This document shows positions 2,550 to 55,400 of a stretch of DNA of 64,000 nt, piece by piece. The position numbers were made by a program, and so were the translations under genes. The notes beneath the pieces were generated by a model, which was not told where the DNA came from, searched no databases, and saw only the letters and a program-made list of their open reading frames with translations. Source of the DNA: Armatimonadota bacterium (GTDB taxonomy: Bacteria > Armatimonadota > Fimbriimonadia > Fimbriimonadales > Fimbriimonadaceae); assembly GCA_018268335.1 (NCBI GenBank), contig JAFDWT010000043.1, positions 16,450 to 80,449 on the forward strand, given 5' to 3'. Each line of letters begins with the position of its first letter. Within the stretch, counting starts at the first letter, position 1.

Positions 2550-3947
2550 ATGAAACGCCGGACCAAAATCGTCTGCACGCTCGGACCCGCCGTCGCCAGC
2601 GAATCCAAAATCAAAGAACTCGTCAGTGCCGGCATGAACGTGGCCAGGCTCAACTGCAGCCACGGTGACTGGGCGAGCAAGGCCGAGATGGTCGGCTGGA
2701 TCAAAAAATGTGAGTCGCAATGCGGCCGCGTCGCCATCCTTGCCGACTTGCAGGGGCCCAAATTCCGGATCGGCAAGTTCGCCGACAACTCGATCACCCT
2801 GACGACAGGCCAGTCGATCACCGTCGGTCATGGCGACGTGACGATTCCAGTGCCCTACGGCGAAATCTGGGACGCGATGAGCAACGGGGCTCGGCTCCTG
2901 CTCGGAGACGGCGAGGTCGAGATCAAGCTGGGCGTCAAGAAAGACGAGGTCTATGACGCAAAAGTTGTCACGGGCGGACTGGTCAAGAGCCGCCAAGGCG
3001 TCACTCTTGTCGGCAAGTCGTTCGACGTCCCCTGCCTGACCACTCAAGACCTCATGGACATCGAGGAAGCTGTCAAGCTCGGCGTCGATTTCATCGCCCT
3101 CAGCTATGTCCGCCGAGCCAGCGACATGCGCGAACTGCGCCGGATCGTCGAGCGTCTGGATCCCTCCGTCCACCTGGTCTCCAAGATCGAAACGAAAGAA
3201 GCTCTGAAGGACCTCGAAGAGATCGTCAAACTCAGCGACGCGGTGATGGTGGCCCGCGGCGACTTGGGGCTACAAATGGACATCGAAGACGTCCCCGCGG
3301 CGCAGCGGCGCATTATCATGGTCTGTAACCGGGCGGGCAAGCCCGTGATCACCGCCACCCAGATGCTGGAAAGCATGGTGGTGAACGCCCGGCCGACACG
3401 CGCCGAGGCGACCGACGTCGCCAACGCCATCTTGCAAGGCACGGACGCCGTGATGCTGAGCGGCGAAACCGCCGCTGGCGCGTATCCCGTCGAAGCCGTC
3501 AAGGTCATGTCCCGGATCGCCGAGAAGACCGACCCATTTGTCCGCCTCTCGGAAGACCTGGAGAACATCCACGAGAGCAACAAAGAGACACACACCGACG
3601 CCGTCGCCCACGCGGCGGTCTCGATCTCGGAGAGTCTGAAGGCCAAGGCGGTCGTCACGACGACGACCAGCGGCGCCACGCCCAAGGTCGTCAGCAAATA
3701 CCGGCCGCGCGCCCCAATCTACTGCACCTGCTGGCACGAGCGGGTGCAGCGTCACTTGGCCTTGGTCTGGGGCGTAGAGGCGATCCTGTCTGATCCCCCG
3801 CTCAACACCGACGACAGCATCGCGAAAGCAGTGGACTCCTTCCTGCGCCACAAGCGGCTGAAGGTCGGCGACCTGGTCGTCGTCACCGCTGGCGTGCCGG
3901 CCGGCCGGCCGGGCAACACCAATATGATCTTGGTCCAGCACGTTTGA
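2550..3947 (+). CDS. pyk: Pyruvate kinase
   Basis: Converts phosphoenolpyruvate and ADP to pyruvate and ATP, the last step of glycolysis. The 465-residue protein opens with KRRTKIVCTLGPA and has MNVARLNCSHG, the metal-site segment SKIETKEAL (about residue 211), ARGDLG (about 235) and the C-terminal-side signature around GTDAVMLSGETAAG. Length matches bacterial pyruvate kinases without the extra PEP-utiliser domain. I chose the ATG at 2550 rather than an upstream in-frame TTG because family members begin at the (K)RRTKIVCTLGP segment. It follows the histidine kinase by about 50 bp. Confidence 0.97.
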   Translation: MKRRTKIVCTLGPAVASESKIKELVSAGMNVARLNCSHGDWASKAEMVGWIKKCESQCGRVAILADLQGPKFRIGKFADNSITLTTGQSITVGHGDVTIPVPYGEIWDAMSNGARLLLGDGEVEIKLGVKKDEVYDAKVVTGGLVKSRQGVTLVGKSFDVPCLTTQDLMDIEEAVKLGVDFIALSYVRRASDMRELRRIVERLDPSVHLVSKIETKEALKDLEEIVKLSDAVMVARGDLGLQMDIEDVPAAQRRIIMVCNRAGKPVITATQMLESMVVNARPTRAEATDVANAILQGTDAVMLSGETAAGAYPVEAVKVMSRIAEKTDPFVRLSEDLENIHESNKETHTDAVAHAAVSISESLKAKAVVTTTTSGATPKVVSKYRPRAPIYCTCWHERVQRHLALVWGVEAILSDPPLNTDDSIAKAVDSFLRHKRLKVGDLVVVTAGVPAGRPGNTNMILVQHV

Positions 3948-12593: not shown

Positions 12594-14327
12594 CTATTTG
12601 CTCACTGTCACGTTGCTTGAGCTGCCGACGTTGCCGGCCGCGTCATAGGCCCGGCAGACCAGAGTGTGGTTGCCACGTGCCCATTTCCTGGTGTTCAGGC
12701 TAAAGCTCGGATTGGCCAAGGTCGAGCTGGCCGCCAGCTTGCCGTCGAGCCAAAGTTCAGTCTTGACGACACCCATGTTGTCCGACGCGCTGGTTTTGAC
12801 GGACAATGTCGTGCCAACCACGACGCCGATACCCGGCGAGACGATGGTCGCGCTCGGAGCCGTCGTGTCGACGACGTTGTTCACGTTCACCGTGGCTTGC
12901 ACCTGCGAGGTGTTCCCCGCCGAGTCGGCGGCGACGGCCAAGAGCGTGTGGCTGCCGTTAGCCAGCTTCGTCGTGTCCCAGCTGTAGCTGAACGGAACCA
13001 CCGACCACGACTGCGCCAAAGCGCCGTCGACATACAGCTTCATGCTCGTCACGCCGACGTTGTCCGTTGCGTTGAGGCCGATGGATACCGAGCCAGCGAC
13101 AGATGCACCATCAGTCGGGTTCGAGAAGGAAACTGAAGGCGGGATCGTGTCCTGCGTGTTCAGGCCCTTGGCGCTCATTACCGCCTTATAGGAGTTGACG
13201 CGGCCCGCGCCGAACGAAGCGTCCCAACCAGCAGAACCAAGATCGTCGCTGGTGTTCTTCAGCAGGTCATAGACCTGATATCCGGTCAGGCCCGGGTTCG
13301 CCGAGAGGACGAGTGCAGCCGCACCGGCCGTGATCGGCGCTGAGAACGACGTGCCGCTCCACGAGCCGTAACCGCCACCGTTGTTCGTCGTGTAAATCGA
13401 AACGCCGGGTGCGGTCAAATCGACGTCGGCACCAGTTGTCGAGAACGAGGCCTTTGCATCGGCGCTGTCGGTAGCACCAACAGTCAATATGTACGGGCTA
13501 TCGGCGGTCGTGTCCGCCGCACCGGTGTTGCCGGATGACACGCAGACCACGCCGCCGTGGTCCATGAAGTACTTGGCCGCGTTGGCCACCGCCGAGCTGC
13601 CAGTCATCTGATAGCTGATGTTGGCCACCTTGGCCCCATGGTCAGAAGCCCAGGTCAACGCCGAAGAGATCGTGCTGCTATAGCCATAGCCGTTTACATC
13701 GCTGATGCGCATCGGCATGATCTGGCTGCCATAGGCCATGCCAGCGATGCCGAGGCTATTGTTGCCAGTAGCAGCCGCGCAACCGGCGACAGCGGTGCCG
13801 TGGCCATACACGTCGTGGGTGTCGCTGGTGTTGTCGTAGGTGTTCCACCCGCCGACATACCGGCCGACCAGATCCGGGTGCGTCGGGTCGCAGCCGGTGT
13901 CCAGGATCGCAATGGTGACACCCATGCCACTGGAATAGGCCCAGGTGCTGCTCGCTTGCGTCTTGTTCACATACCACTCGCTGGCAAGGCTCGGGTCGTT
14001 GACGGCTGCGGCCGGCTTCATGGCCCAGTCGGGTTCGGCAAATTCGACGTCGGATCGCTTGGCGAGCGCGCTGGCAAAAGCCTTCTCGGAGGCCTGGGCT
14101 GGGAGTTGGAGGACGTAAGTGTCGATCCCATTGAAGTGGTCTGCCTTACGGGCTCCGGAGTTGCCGATGACCCGGTCCGCCTGGGCCTGGGTCACGCCCG
14201 GTTTGAACTTCACCAGGATGCGATGCGGGGCGAAATCTTGGGCAAAGGCCGCGGCCGCGAGACCAGCGACCGCCGCAGTGGGAACCACGACCTTCAAGAA
14301 GCGGGCACGAAAACCGCGACAATTCAC
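12594..14327 (-). CDS. Secreted subtilisin-like serine protease (S8) with two Ig-like domains
   Basis: A 577-residue exported protease. It has a signal peptide to about residue 30, an inhibitor-I9-like propeptide (30-100, starting PHRILVKFKPGVT) and an S8 catalytic domain. The triad is Asp143 (ILDTG), His176 (GHGT) and Ser327 (SGTSFSAP), with the oxyanion Asn267 in SSGNTG. The fold is thermitase-like. Two C-terminal repeats of about 90 residues each (both with the pattern LYVDG/LWLDG... GNHTL / GSHTL... AAGN) are bacterial Ig-like domains, usually for binding a surface or polymer. It is convergent to the secreted paralogues, and an extracellular degradative or processing role is inferred. Confidence 0.93.
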   Translation of the reverse strand: MNCRGFRARFLKVVVPTAAVAGLAAAAFAQDFAPHRILVKFKPGVTQAQADRVIGNSGARKADHFNGIDTYVLQLPAQASEKAFASALAKRSDVEFAEPDWAMKPAAAVNDPSLASEWYVNKTQASSTWAYSSGMGVTIAILDTGCDPTHPDLVGRYVGGWNTYDNTSDTHDVYGHGTAVAGCAAATGNNSLGIAGMAYGSQIMPMRISDVNGYGYSSTISSALTWASDHGAKVANISYQMTGSSAVANAAKYFMDHGGVVCVSSGNTGAADTTADSPYILTVGATDSADAKASFSTTGADVDLTAPGVSIYTTNNGGGYGSWSGTSFSAPITAGAAALVLSANPGLTGYQVYDLLKNTSDDLGSAGWDASFGAGRVNSYKAVMSAKGLNTQDTIPPSVSFSNPTDGASVAGSVSIGLNATDNVGVTSMKLYVDGALAQSWSVVPFSYSWDTTKLANGSHTLLAVAADSAGNTSQVQATVNVNNVVDTTAPSATIVSPGIGVVVGTTLSVKTSASDNMGVVKTELWLDGKLAASSTLANPSFSLNTRKWARGNHTLVCRAYDAAGNVGSSSNVTVSK

Positions 14328-41359: not shown

Positions 41360-42529
41360 CTAAAACTTCTTGGTGATCGCGACGTAGCCCCAGAGTTGCC
41401 GGTTGGACGACCCGACCTGCAGGTTCTGAGGAAACGTGCCTGGCCAGAAGACTCCGGCGCCTGCGGTCAGTGTGTATGTCGTGTCGAACTTGTAGCTGAA
41501 GTCCAGATCGAGTTCGCGGCCCAAGTGGCGGCCCGAAGCCCCGGTGGCGTCCGTATAGGTGCCGCCTGTGCGGGTGTTCACACCGCCACCGACTCCATAC
41601 CAGCTGTCACCAGAGTCATAGAGGCTGAGATCCATCACCTGGACTTTGAAGGTCTCCTTCGGAGACACGTTGAAGCGAAGCCCAGCACCGAGCTGCCTGA
41701 CATTTTGCCATCCGGTCGTGTCCATCAGGCCGACTCGGTCGTGACCGGTCGGATAGAGCTGGTCGAACGTGTTGACAGTGTCCGTGCTCTTGCCGCCACT
41801 GGCGATGTTGGTCTCGAAGAACCCATCGATCTTCTTGGCCACTGGCATCGTGTATCGGGCAAAGCCAGCCCAGGCGCGCACGGCCTTGCCGTCCTCGTGC
41901 CCGATTTGTCCGGCCACTTGATAGTCGACACTGCCCTTGCCGAGCTTGAACTTGCCCTCGCGAGAAAGCGTCAGCCTTCCCTTCTGGACGTTGTTGAGCT
42001 CGTCCGTTTTGACGACGGCCATGGTCAGACCCTGCGAGTCCTTCATCGTGACGCCGCCGAGGAAGAGGTTCTTGTCCGGCACCACGCCGACACCCTGTTT
42101 GGCGACGAACGCGGAGAAGCGGTCCCTCTCGTACGACACCGCGTCGAAAGAGTTTGAGACGTTGTGCCAGTTCAACTCGCCAATGAGGCGTTGCGAGCCG
42201 ACCGCCAACCTTTGCCGTCCCAGCGTCACCTTGGCCTTGTCGACTGAGAACGACGCGTTGGCCTCGACCATGTCGCTCCTGTCGTTCGACGAGTTGCTGC
42301 CCAAGGTCCACACCCAGTCGTGGGCGTACTGATAGACAAACCGTCCAGTGAAATCCTTGCCTTTCAGATTCACGCCGGCCCGATACCGGCCAAAAACGTC
42401 GCCACGGTTGTCTGAAACGTTGCTCAGAAAGTCCTTGTCTGTCCTGCGCTCATAGCGCTCGCGAATCTCAAAGACAGGCTCGACCTTGATCTTCAGCTTC
42501 GCGTCGTCGATGGGAATGTACAGCCACAT
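41360..42529 (-). CDS. Alginate-export-like outer-membrane beta-barrel protein
   Basis: A 389-residue protein of alternating polar and hydrophobic strands ending in Phe, as expected for an outer-membrane barrel. Segments such as VTLGRQRLAVGSQRLIGELNW and NSFDAVSYERDRFSAFVAK fit the alginate-export porin family, members of which occur in denitrification clusters. No signal peptide is visible: the chain starts MWLYIPIDDAKLKIKVEPVF, although GAGGGA sits at a good distance upstream of this ATG. The missing signal is odd for a barrel. It may help nitrate or nitrite cross the outer membrane. Confidence 0.65.
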   Translation of the reverse strand: MWLYIPIDDAKLKIKVEPVFEIRERYERRTDKDFLSNVSDNRGDVFGRYRAGVNLKGKDFTGRFVYQYAHDWVWTLGSNSSNDRSDMVEANASFSVDKAKVTLGRQRLAVGSQRLIGELNWHNVSNSFDAVSYERDRFSAFVAKQGVGVVPDKNLFLGGVTMKDSQGLTMAVVKTDELNNVQKGRLTLSREGKFKLGKGSVDYQVAGQIGHEDGKAVRAWAGFARYTMPVAKKIDGFFETNIASGGKSTDTVNTFDQLYPTGHDRVGLMDTTGWQNVRQLGAGLRFNVSPKETFKVQVMDLSLYDSGDSWYGVGGGVNTRTGGTYTDATGASGRHLGRELDLDFSYKFDTTYTLTAGAGVFWPGTFPQNLQVGSSNRQLWGYVAITKKF

Positions 42530-42576
42530 TTGTTTGTCCCTCAGTTGATTCTCTTATCCTCGCCAGAACCCCAACC

Positions 42577-42590
42577 ATGACATGCGTCAT
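42577..42590. promoter_or_regulatory. Crp/Fnr-type operator upstream of the porin-crp operon
   Basis: ATGA-CATGCG-TCAT, centred about 55 bp before the porin-like gene's start codon. It shares its core and spacing, and nearly its spacer, with the site upstream of the molybdoenzyme operon (ATGA-TCTGCG-TCAT). Position suits an activator site. Confidence 0.68.
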
Positions 42591-42682
42591 ATTTTGCCAA
42601 ATCGTGGGCTGGTTGGCACTGTTCGGAGTCGAGGCTGTTCTCCTCTTCATCATCGGAGCGCTGGAGCCAGGTCCAGCAGAAT

Positions 42683-43009
42683 CTAGGGCGTGTTCACACT
42701 TCGAGGATGAATCTGGACTTCCTGAAGTCTGCTTGGGCATCCTCGCGCAGCCTATATCCCGCCGCTCGTCACTCCTGCGCAGGCAGGAGTCTAGCTCGGG
42801 ACAAACCGAGTCCGTTTCCGCTGTGCCCAAGTCGGAACGGACTGTGCCAGGCCGGAGCGCTGGACCCCTGCCTGCGCAGGGGTGACGGGTGGTAGTTGGC
42901 ACTCGCCCCTCAGTCAATAGATCAAGATGGGACTACCCGACTAGCCCTGTGCGACGCACCGCTCCGACGCCTGGCTTCTCGTACCTGCCGAAATGTGAAC
43001 ACGCCCTAG
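42683..43009. mobile_element. MITE-like element with 21-bp terminal inverted repeats
   Basis: The ends are 21-base inverted repeats (left 42683-42703, right 42989-43009) differing at one position. Each end carries CTAG, which can be read as a 4-bp target duplication of the YTAR type used by IS5-like elements; the core would then be 42687-43005, 319 bp. There is no transposase and no believable gene inside. Two copies of a 26-30-base palindromic repeat face each other inside (about 42769-42795 and 42861-42886). The right-hand CTAG supplies the TAG stop codon of the neighbouring cytochrome gene. Confidence 0.72.
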
Positions 43010-44289
43010 TTTCGAGAACCGAATTGCGGCACAGATTGGCTGAGGATGTCGAGTGCCGCCTTCTTGTCTTCGCTGGAGAACGACGCGAGGTCTAGTGTCT
43101 GGTCACTGCCAGACAAAACTTGGCGCAGACGCTCGAACACCCGTGCCTTGGCTTTTGCCGGCAAGCCCTCGATGCTCTTGGAATAGACCAGCGGGCTGCA
43201 GGGATAGCGGAACAACCTGGTCTTGAGATTGAGGTCAGACAGCCGGCGTCCGTCTTTATCACTCGGTGCGGATTGCGATAGATGGGCCGTAAATTGGCTT
43301 GTGCCCGCAATTGGAGAAGTCAGAGTCGGCTCGCCGACATGCAGCAAGGCCTTCACCAGTGGTTCACAAGCGTACGCGACCCGATCGTTGAGTTGCTGCT
43401 CGATATGCTTCGCATCAAACTTGAGGTCAGTCAAGTTCTTGGCCTCAGCGAGAGCGCGGCGCGTCAGTTGACCGGCTCGAGTGGCCAAATTGACAACTGT
43501 CAATTGGTGTTCAAAGACCATGAGCGCGACGATGTCCGAGTGGCCGGTCAGATAGTCCTTGACATCGCAATAGCTGGCCAAGTCCTTCTTGTTCGCACCT
43601 CTTTCCCGGTCGAGGCCATCGTTGGCACCGCTGCCCCTTGCGACTTCGTTCCCCATGTGCCTCATGCTGCCATGGGTGCCGGTGACGTACCAGCCGCCCC
43701 ATCTCTCCTCCATTGGACTCGACGCCGTTGTCTTGTAGGATCCAAACGCCAGCCTGGAGCTGCCATCAGGTGCGACAAACACAGACCTCGCCAAAAGACC
43801 AGGCACGTTGCCAGTGGCGGGGGTGAAGTGGCACTGAAAGCAGTCGTCGGTTTTGCGCTGGACATCCGGCCGGTCGCTCTTTTGGTTGGCGAGAATGTAG
43901 AACACCGGCCCGACTTCCGGGTCGATGCTCATGATCTCGATGTACGGTGCGCCTGGGATCCAGCCGATGGAGTTCTCCGCATTGAAATAGACCGCCCTTG
44001 GGTTGCTTGGTGAGATGTACTGTGATTGCAGACTGGTCTTCGAGAACACCAGCAGCTGCGACGAAGGCGGGACGCCCAGCTTGTCCAGCAGGGACTTGAG
44101 GTATCCCTGCTTGGGCTCATAGTCGAGCGTGGCCTTCCCCGACTTCATGTCTTGCACTAGTCGTGCGACCGGGTCTGCCACATCACTTTTGTAGAACTCG
44201 CTTTGTCCTGCTTGATCTTGCAAGGGACTAGCTGCCAACAAGGCGTACGGCACAAGGCAGAGGCCAGCGAGCAGGGTCTTTCTTGTCAT
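43006..44289 (-). CDS. Exported mono-haem cytochrome c-like protein
   Basis: A 427-residue protein with a signal peptide (about 5-22) and one haem c site, CFQCH (Cys150, Cys153, His154). Further on is ERWGGWYVTGTHGSMRHMGN, a block I associate with a family of exported haem proteins of unknown function; the recall is from pattern, not a search. No other haem site is visible. I chose the ATG at 44289; an in-frame TTG ten codons upstream is less likely. It ends the molybdoenzyme operon, 72 bp after narK 2, so periplasmic electron transfer is likely. Its stop codon lies in the terminal CTAG of the MITE. Confidence 0.75.
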   Translation of the reverse strand: MTRKTLLAGLCLVPYALLAASPLQDQAGQSEFYKSDVADPVARLVQDMKSGKATLDYEPKQGYLKSLLDKLGVPPSSQLLVFSKTSLQSQYISPSNPRAVYFNAENSIGWIPGAPYIEIMSIDPEVGPVFYILANQKSDRPDVQRKTDDCFQCHFTPATGNVPGLLARSVFVAPDGSSRLAFGSYKTTASSPMEERWGGWYVTGTHGSMRHMGNEVARGSGANDGLDRERGANKKDLASYCDVKDYLTGHSDIVALMVFEHQLTVVNLATRAGQLTRRALAEAKNLTDLKFDAKHIEQQLNDRVAYACEPLVKALLHVGEPTLTSPIAGTSQFTAHLSQSAPSDKDGRRLSDLNLKTRLFRYPCSPLVYSKSIEGLPAKAKARVFERLRQVLSGSDQTLDLASFSSEDKKAALDILSQSVPQFGSRN

Positions 44290-44361
44290 GGCGAGTGGCT
44301 TGCCCCTAAACGTCCGCAACCGCGCGTCAATGAGGCAGCCTCTGGAAACAGTTTGCCCAAC

Positions 44362-53855: not shown

Positions 53856-55400
53856 TCACCGGCTCGGCTGGTAGAGCTTGTAGGTGTAGTTCAGCTCCAG
53901 TTTGTCGCCGCCTTTGATATCGGTCTCCCAGGTCACCTTGGAGGGCGTGTTCACGTCGGAGAGGCGACGGACGAACTTGGTGATCTTGCCAGTGTGGTCG
54001 GCCTCCGTGGCTTCGCCCACGAGATCCTTGGCGATCATCATTTTCACAACGTCTTTTTTGCGACTGGTGACGACGATCTTTCCGTGAATCGTGACGAGAT
54101 CCCAGACCGGGTTGCCGAACCGGTCTTTGATCTCCCCCCGGACGCGGCCCGTTTCTTCTTCCATTTGGTCCGCCGAGATGTCGAGGGCCTTGGTGATCTT
54201 GACAAACTGTTCGGCGCCCACAGGTGTGTAGGTCAACATGTCCTGTCCAAGAAGCTCCCCGTTCTTTTCCGTCAGGATGGTGCCGGTCGTCAGCGGCTGC
54301 TTGGACGTGTTCTTGAACTTGAGCTCGTGCCAAGTTTCCAGGGGCGGAAGGTTACGGCCCGGGGTGGTGTCCATCGGCATCTGCGGCACGTCGAGGGTGT
54401 AGATGTGCTCGTAATCCGACTTGGCCTGCATCAAGACGTAATAGCCCCGGTCGCCCTTCTTCAATGTCACCTTGTCCTGGCGATAAAAGAAGAGGTCTTC
54501 AGCAGAGAACCCCTCCAGGTCACTCAATGGCATCGGCGCAATGCTTGCTTCGGCGGCCCTGTACGCCATCTGGCCTCCAAACCCACCGCCACCCATCGGC
54601 ATGTTGTTCGCGAACTGGTCGCGGCTGCCGCGGTTCAACATGCCGTTTAAGTACTGCTCGGCGACAACCGCCGCTGAAAATGGGTCGGGCAGATTGATAA
54701 AGGGAATGTTTGGGAAACCAGTGACCAGCCGAAGCTCCAAGCCGTTGATGTCTTCCAGGTCGTCCAAAATGGTCGCCTTGGCCGTCAGAGTCAGCTCCTT
54801 GGGGTCGCTGATGTCCACCTGATAGGCGGGCGTCCATGTCAGACCACGCTGGAGAACCGTGTAATAGACCTTGCCTCCCGGCGTCCCCGACATCCGCACT
54901 GCTTGCTGGCTGCTGGTCTGCTTGGCCTTCCACTCGAGGCCACCGTCCGTCGACATGACGGCGGCGACAAATCCTTTGGGAAACGTGACCACGCCCTCTT
55001 GCGACTTAAAGACGATGATCTGTCCTTCCGCCGACAAGATAGTGCCGACCATCCGACTCGCACCGGTGCTGTTGCCGTTCATCAAGAGCGTGACATTCCT
55101 GCCCTTGTTGGCCTGGATGATTTCGTCGATCGTGCCAATGTCGCGCGAAGTCTCGTCGCTGACCGTCGTGGCGACGATCTCCTTCAGCGTCACGTCTTTG
55201 GGTGCCGAGACCCAAAAGGTGCCAAGGGCGACGTTTTGAGGCTGCCGCAACAGAAGGCGGCCGCTGGCCGGGATCGTGGCCTCGCGCAGCACGACGGCAT
55301 AGCCGTTCTTAAAGAGCGACGCACCGACGACCTTGGCGTCGGTGATCGGATCGGCAGAGGTCGAAGCCAAAACTAGCAGAGCGGAAGTCAAGAGTGCCAT
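53856..55400 (-). CDS. Exported DUF4139 domain protein
   Basis: A 514-residue protein with a signal peptide (about 1-17) and a long beta-rich body typical of DUF4139 proteins (VLREATIPASGRLLL, TWTPAYQVDI, LELRLVTGFPNIPF, and the late segment NTSKQPLTTGTILTEKNG). A Gly/Met-rich loop (MPMGGGGFGGQM) lies in the middle. The ATG at 55400 is preferred over a GTG one codon earlier. Function is unknown in the family. It is upstream of nothing obvious and is 40 bp after the end of recN. Confidence 0.83.
   Translation of the reverse strand: MALLTSALLVLASTSADPITDAKVVGASLFKNGYAVVLREATIPASGRLLLRQPQNVALGTFWVSAPKDVTLKEIVATTVSDETSRDIGTIDEIIQANKGRNVTLLMNGNSTGASRMVGTILSAEGQIIVFKSQEGVVTFPKGFVAAVMSTDGGLEWKAKQTSSQQAVRMSGTPGGKVYYTVLQRGLTWTPAYQVDISDPKELTLTAKATILDDLEDINGLELRLVTGFPNIPFINLPDPFSAAVVAEQYLNGMLNRGSRDQFANNMPMGGGGFGGQMAYRAAEASIAPMPLSDLEGFSAEDLFFYRQDKVTLKKGDRGYYVLMQAKSDYEHIYTLDVPQMPMDTTPGRNLPPLETWHELKFKNTSKQPLTTGTILTEKNGELLGQDMLTYTPVGAEQFVKITKALDISADQMEEETGRVRGEIKDRFGNPVWDLVTIHGKIVVTSRKKDVVKMMIAKDLVGEATEADHTGKITKFVRRLSDVNTPSKVTWETDIKGGDKLELNYTYKLYQPSR

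Follow-up and report, generated by a model that had tools for sequence, protein, structure and literature searches.

A probable IS5-type MITE at a stop codon in an Armatimonadota genome, and elements with the same ends in other bacterial phyla

The stretch at positions 42683 to 43009 of the window (64,000 nucleotides of contig JAFDWT010000043.1, assembly GCA_018268335.1, from an Armatimonadota bacterium of the family Fimbriimonadaceae) is very probably (about 0.9) a non-autonomous transposon (MITE) with IS5-family, IS427-like ends, inserted at a target word that holds the stop codon of the neighbouring gene. This kind of element is already known, and the window copy is a further member of it, with a landing site that is neat but explainable. 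The genome of the window (G000; 3.09 Mb in 126 contigs, 93.6% complete) was compared with its relatives and with genomes of other phyla, and the results are described below.

The element is 327 bp long counting both CTAGs, between which 319 bases are located. Its first 21 bases form a terminal inverted repeat with one mismatch, the left repeat CTAGGGCGTGTTCACACTTCG occupying positions 42683–42703 (plus strand) and the right one positions 42989–43009, where it reads CTAGGGCGTGTTCACATTTCG on the minus strand. The inverted-repeat arms reach 25 nt (42679–42703 and 42989–43013) with 92% complementarity and a spacing of 285 nt, and the ungapped score of 17 was not reached in any of 300 dinucleotide shuffles of 1,101 bases (maximum 15, mean 9.5). 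No transposase-sized frame was found inside the element, as stated in the preliminary description, and the longest listed open reading frames overlapping it run into the flanks. Small size (<500 bp), terminal inverted repeats, absence of a transposase gene, dispersed copies (two in its own genome and same-ended elements in other genomes) and a target site duplication (CTAG flanking both ends, with TA likely duplicated) together characterize a MITE, and the MITE-like nature proposed earlier is thus upheld.

The second copy in the same genome is diverged and lies on another contig (C79, from base 13509, 402 bp); it agrees with the window element in 251 of 323 aligned columns. The alignment spans the length of the element and scores 339.5, while 200 shuffles gave 118.9 ± 9.6 with a maximum of 151. 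Among 101 genomes (the window genome and 100 relatives) the full element sequence was present only in the window genome, and five others gave single matches of 22–31 bases each. When as many as 3 mismatches were allowed, 11 of the 101 genomes matched the end pattern, several ends being found only in G000 (3) and in G022 (7), a member of the same family but of another genus, whose same-ended copies of about 310 bp have unrelated interiors. An end pair at 53940–54998 of the window was attributed to chance and dropped. The preliminary description had proposed a search for further genomic copies and regarded their absence from the genome and its relatives, together with a conserved intergenic sequence at this place, as an argument against a mobile element; such copies do exist, the C79 one in the genome itself. 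With two copies only, recent mobility in this genome is no more than possible.

Outside the relatives the end sequence was sought by exact scanning of 84,980 species genomes, which gave 31 stretches, in MAGs labelled Dehalococcoidia, Acidobacteria, Proteobacteria, Gammaproteobacteria, Ectothiorhodospiraceae, and Fimbriimonadaceae and in Noviherbaspirillum aerium. Seven such genomes (G101–G107, including the Dehalococcoidia genome G102 and the Noviherbaspirillum genome G103) were then searched whole with up to 2 mismatches and a control pattern alongside, and contained 2 to 49 ends each (G102 49, G103 36, G105 29, G106 8, G104 7, G101 4, and G107 2) with 0 control matches. Paired ends in these genomes enclose MITEs of 92–371 bp, the interiors of which are unrelated between phyla. 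Plasmids searched for a 50-base end of the element yielded a single 19-base match, and no paper on bacteria matched its end sequences at the level of titles and abstract openings.

Intact elements of 831–860 bp with the same ends were identified in G102, G101, and G012, the last belonging to the family of the window genome, and their two overlapping frames match two halves of the IS5-family transposase NF033580. The ends of the G012 element are CTAGGGCGTGTTAACAC. These findings support an IS5-type source of the ends, which had been anticipated; the IS5-like element with such ends that was to be looked for exists in these three genomes but not in the window genome. There, in the 93.6% complete assembly, neither NF033580 nor the G102 transposase protein (at 1e-10) had a match, so the source transposase has been lost, is unassembled, or is located elsewhere. 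G105 and G107 likewise possess the ends with no NF033580 match, and in G103, which has many NF033580 transposases, the places examined showed none of these ends beside them. The complete IS5-family element with CTAGGGCGTGTTAACAC ends at about 1501–2330 of locus L190 (G012:C4) is a possible transposase source in the family.

The assignment to an IS427-like group is based on comparison of size, two ORFs, and duplication length with the Paracoccus elements of the IS427 group, which are mostly 832–865 bp long with 2-bp duplications and one of 4 bp according to the excerpted text of PMC3281130. The window element resembles this group in its ends, which are those of the 831–860 bp elements with the two-ORF NF033580 transposase, and differs in having no transposase and an interior unrelated to the IS. 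Plain intergenic DNA whose inverted repeat arose by chance or serves regulation would agree with the low copy number (two in the genome, no full copy in 100 relatives); nevertheless, a second homologous copy exists and the ends recur in many genomes, also around IS5 transposases, which makes this reading extremely improbable.

The target site was analysed in 40 end pairs of six genomes (G000, G106, G102, G101, G105, and G103); G104 gave none, and the C79 copy is absent from the set owing to more mismatches in its right end. TAG and CTA inside both ends were kept in 23 of the 40 pairs, the outer bases of which were C/G (15 pairs), C/A (3), T/G (2), C/C (2), and T/A (1). The YTAR-type target proposed earlier fits 21 of these 23 pairs. 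In 8 of 23 the two 4-bp words differ while TA is kept, and the outermost base at either end changes together with the adjacent flank, while the inner G and C are constant. Because the outer bases vary independently and the inner ones do not, the duplication judged from these sequences is probably TA inside a YTAR target rather than CTAG, although mutation could also account for the unequal outer bases. The former description of CTAG as the target duplication is therefore correct as to its presence at both ends but less likely as to the duplicated bases, which would be the TA at 42684–42685 within the left CTAG and the TA at 43007–43008.

The right TA provides the T and A of the TAG stop (43006–43008, minus strand) of the gene upstream of the element on its strand (43006–44319, minus), and the G of this stop, which sits in the right-hand CTAG, would be the terminal base of the element if TA is the duplication. 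The gene has one CxxCH motif and no Pfam or NCBIfam match, and its homologue in G006 is 39% identical to it across 392 aligned positions. Judged by its translation, this homologue stops about two codons away from the equivalent position; the stop is therefore native and does not result from truncation by the insertion, in accordance with the earlier claim that the protein was kept intact and only the 3' flank was changed. The next gene (41360–42529, minus) starts 153 bp past the element and encodes an outer-membrane protein (Alginate_exp, PF13372). No empty site was found for the window locus, as the same-genus genome G001 is without the flanking gene and G006 has only the distant homologue. 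The flanking gene, named as a cytochrome in the preliminary description, had a homologue in only 1 of 30 relatives searched.

The insertion may be explained as follows. A transposase supplied in trans, which was not found in the present assembly, would have recognised the ends of 21 bases and placed the element into a YTAR site (CTAG in this case), with duplication of TA. The element would begin with G, and TA together with this G would rebuild the TAG stop, therefore keeping the protein and changing only what follows the gene.

The frequency of stop codons as landing sites was estimated most extensively in G102, in 818 kb with gene calls, a non-random sample of copy-rich contigs and six flanks chosen for holding copies, which contained 22 paired elements, two of them of full IS size. 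Copies truncated at a contig boundary, with a single end remaining, were left out, overlapping end pairs were reduced to the better one, and the gene caller was simple and missed some ends that appear coding on inspection (L233, L236). The 428 background CTAG sites comprise 136 at stops, 121 inside genes, and 171 intergenic ones (77 tandem, 64 divergent, 20 convergent, and 10 edge), and TAG is the stop of 318 of the 715 called genes, which by itself makes CTAG frequent at stops. The paired elements lie on stops in 18 of 22 cases, which exceeds the background of all CTAG sites (136/428, p=3.7e-6) and of sites outside coding interiors (136/307, p=7e-4); a cruder codon model for the site classes gave the same trend. 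When only CTAGs at gene 3' ends (stop or convergent spacer) are considered, the excess is gone (18/19 vs 136/156, p=0.48).

In the window genome both copies are on TAG stops, compared with 12 of 154 background CTAG sites in 116 kb of the genome. The association is weaker in the other genomes, with 1/6 copies on stops in G106 (background 1/10), 5/14 in G105 (5/13), 8/23 in G103 (12/78), and 1/7 in G104 (3/16); G101 was left out of these counts, its rows L149 and L116 being one place.

The C79 copy occupies a site of a special type. Without the element, the two convergent genes end with GGC TAG (plus) and GTC TAG (minus) and one palindromic CTAG is common to both, whereas the insertion gives each of them its own stop. 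The shared stop corresponds to positions 3010–3013 of the empty site (L035), and the element now separates the two genes. Such double-stop CTAGs received 3 of 22 insertions in G102, compared with 11 of 428 background sites (p=0.026).

These counts could be taken as active targeting of stops or gene 3' ends, either by extended target recognition or by terminating transcription, and the G102 excess over both backgrounds, the two stop-located copies of the window genome, and the convergent shared CTAGs would speak for it. But the disappearance of the excess among gene-3'-end CTAGs, its lack in G105, and the unbiased orientation at stops in G102 (9 vs 6 ends abutting the gene, p=0.61) make it unlikely. 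An orientation bias had been suspected by eye and was not upheld by this calculation.

The simplest reading of the stop counts is a preference for CTAG combined with the disappearance of insertions that disrupt genes or promoters, and we infer that selection of this kind caused the bias. Stops would be frequent landing sites because gene ends are rich in CTAG and because elements that insert at other places tend not to persist; since both factors suffice, stop-codon recognition is not needed. More tentatively, IS5-type elements may use the palindromic CTAG as a safe harbour, and the target of the transposase and the end sequence may have been co-shaped for this. If this is true, at a CTAG shared by convergent genes the TA duplication and the G of the element would provide each gene with its own TAG and spare both proteins. 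No report on stop-codon landing of IS5-type MITEs was found in titles and abstract openings.

The interior of the window element contains, at 42762–42892, an inverted pair of 28-nt REP-type palindromic repeats about 90 nt apart (arms 42762–42795 and 42859–42892), which was also found without the outer ends at five other loci scanned (L036–L039, L041) and thus forms a dispersed inverted REP pair, presumably of the kind named REPIN or REP doublet. Most members of this doublet family, which is scattered through the window genome, are not flanked by MITE ends. It resembles REPINs in the inverted pairing of palindromic repeats and their dispersal, and differs in being nested inside a MITE and in not accompanying the Y1_Tnp genes: no REPs beside a RAYT gene were seen in five Y1_Tnp loci (L274–L278; four in G000 and one in G022). 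Two Y1_Tnp genes of G000 exceed the Pfam cut-off, and no copy of the REP-type repeat is beside them. In the MITEs of G102 (L130–L148), CCCCGTGCTTGACACGGGG hairpins form an inverted pair, and in some of them another hairpin is nested inside; the architecture is that of the window interior, while the sequence is unrelated.

Ten MITE copies fold much more strongly than their shuffled versions, with z of −4.4 to −14.2, whereas 14 control stretches taken from the window gave −2.7 to 0.3. This strong folding would suit an element retained as a portable structured 3' UTR, serving as a terminator or mRNA-stabilising hairpin; however, the inverted repeats of any MITE fold strongly, a scan of 42300–43300 revealed no site resembling a terminator or a sigma-70 promoter, the interiors are unrelated between phyla, and the 9/6 split of abutting ends in G102 gives no sign of oriented function. 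Such a role is accordingly quite improbable.

Several known elements are comparable. MITEPsy1 of Pseudomonas syringae is an IS5-related MITE of 100 bp with the target CTAG or YTAA and a 4-bp duplication (excerpted text of PMC3189936, in which no stop-codon association is seen); the window element also inserts at CTAG but has 327 bp and other ends. QMITE1 and QMITE2 of Coxiella burnetii overlap gene 3' ends, QMITE2 contains REP and has variable duplications of 7–11 nt, and one QMITE insertion lengthened the protein instead of keeping its stop, according to excerpts of PMC5896051. The overlap with a gene 3' end and the REP inside are thus shared, while the elements themselves are different and the window insertion kept the stop of the protein.

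In summary, one set of IS5-type ends drives unrelated MITEs in several bacterial phyla, Armatimonadota included. Their build-up at stops would have a simple cause, as the target word abounds where genes end and the terminal base of the element restores the stop, and annotators may otherwise take such sites for special regulation.
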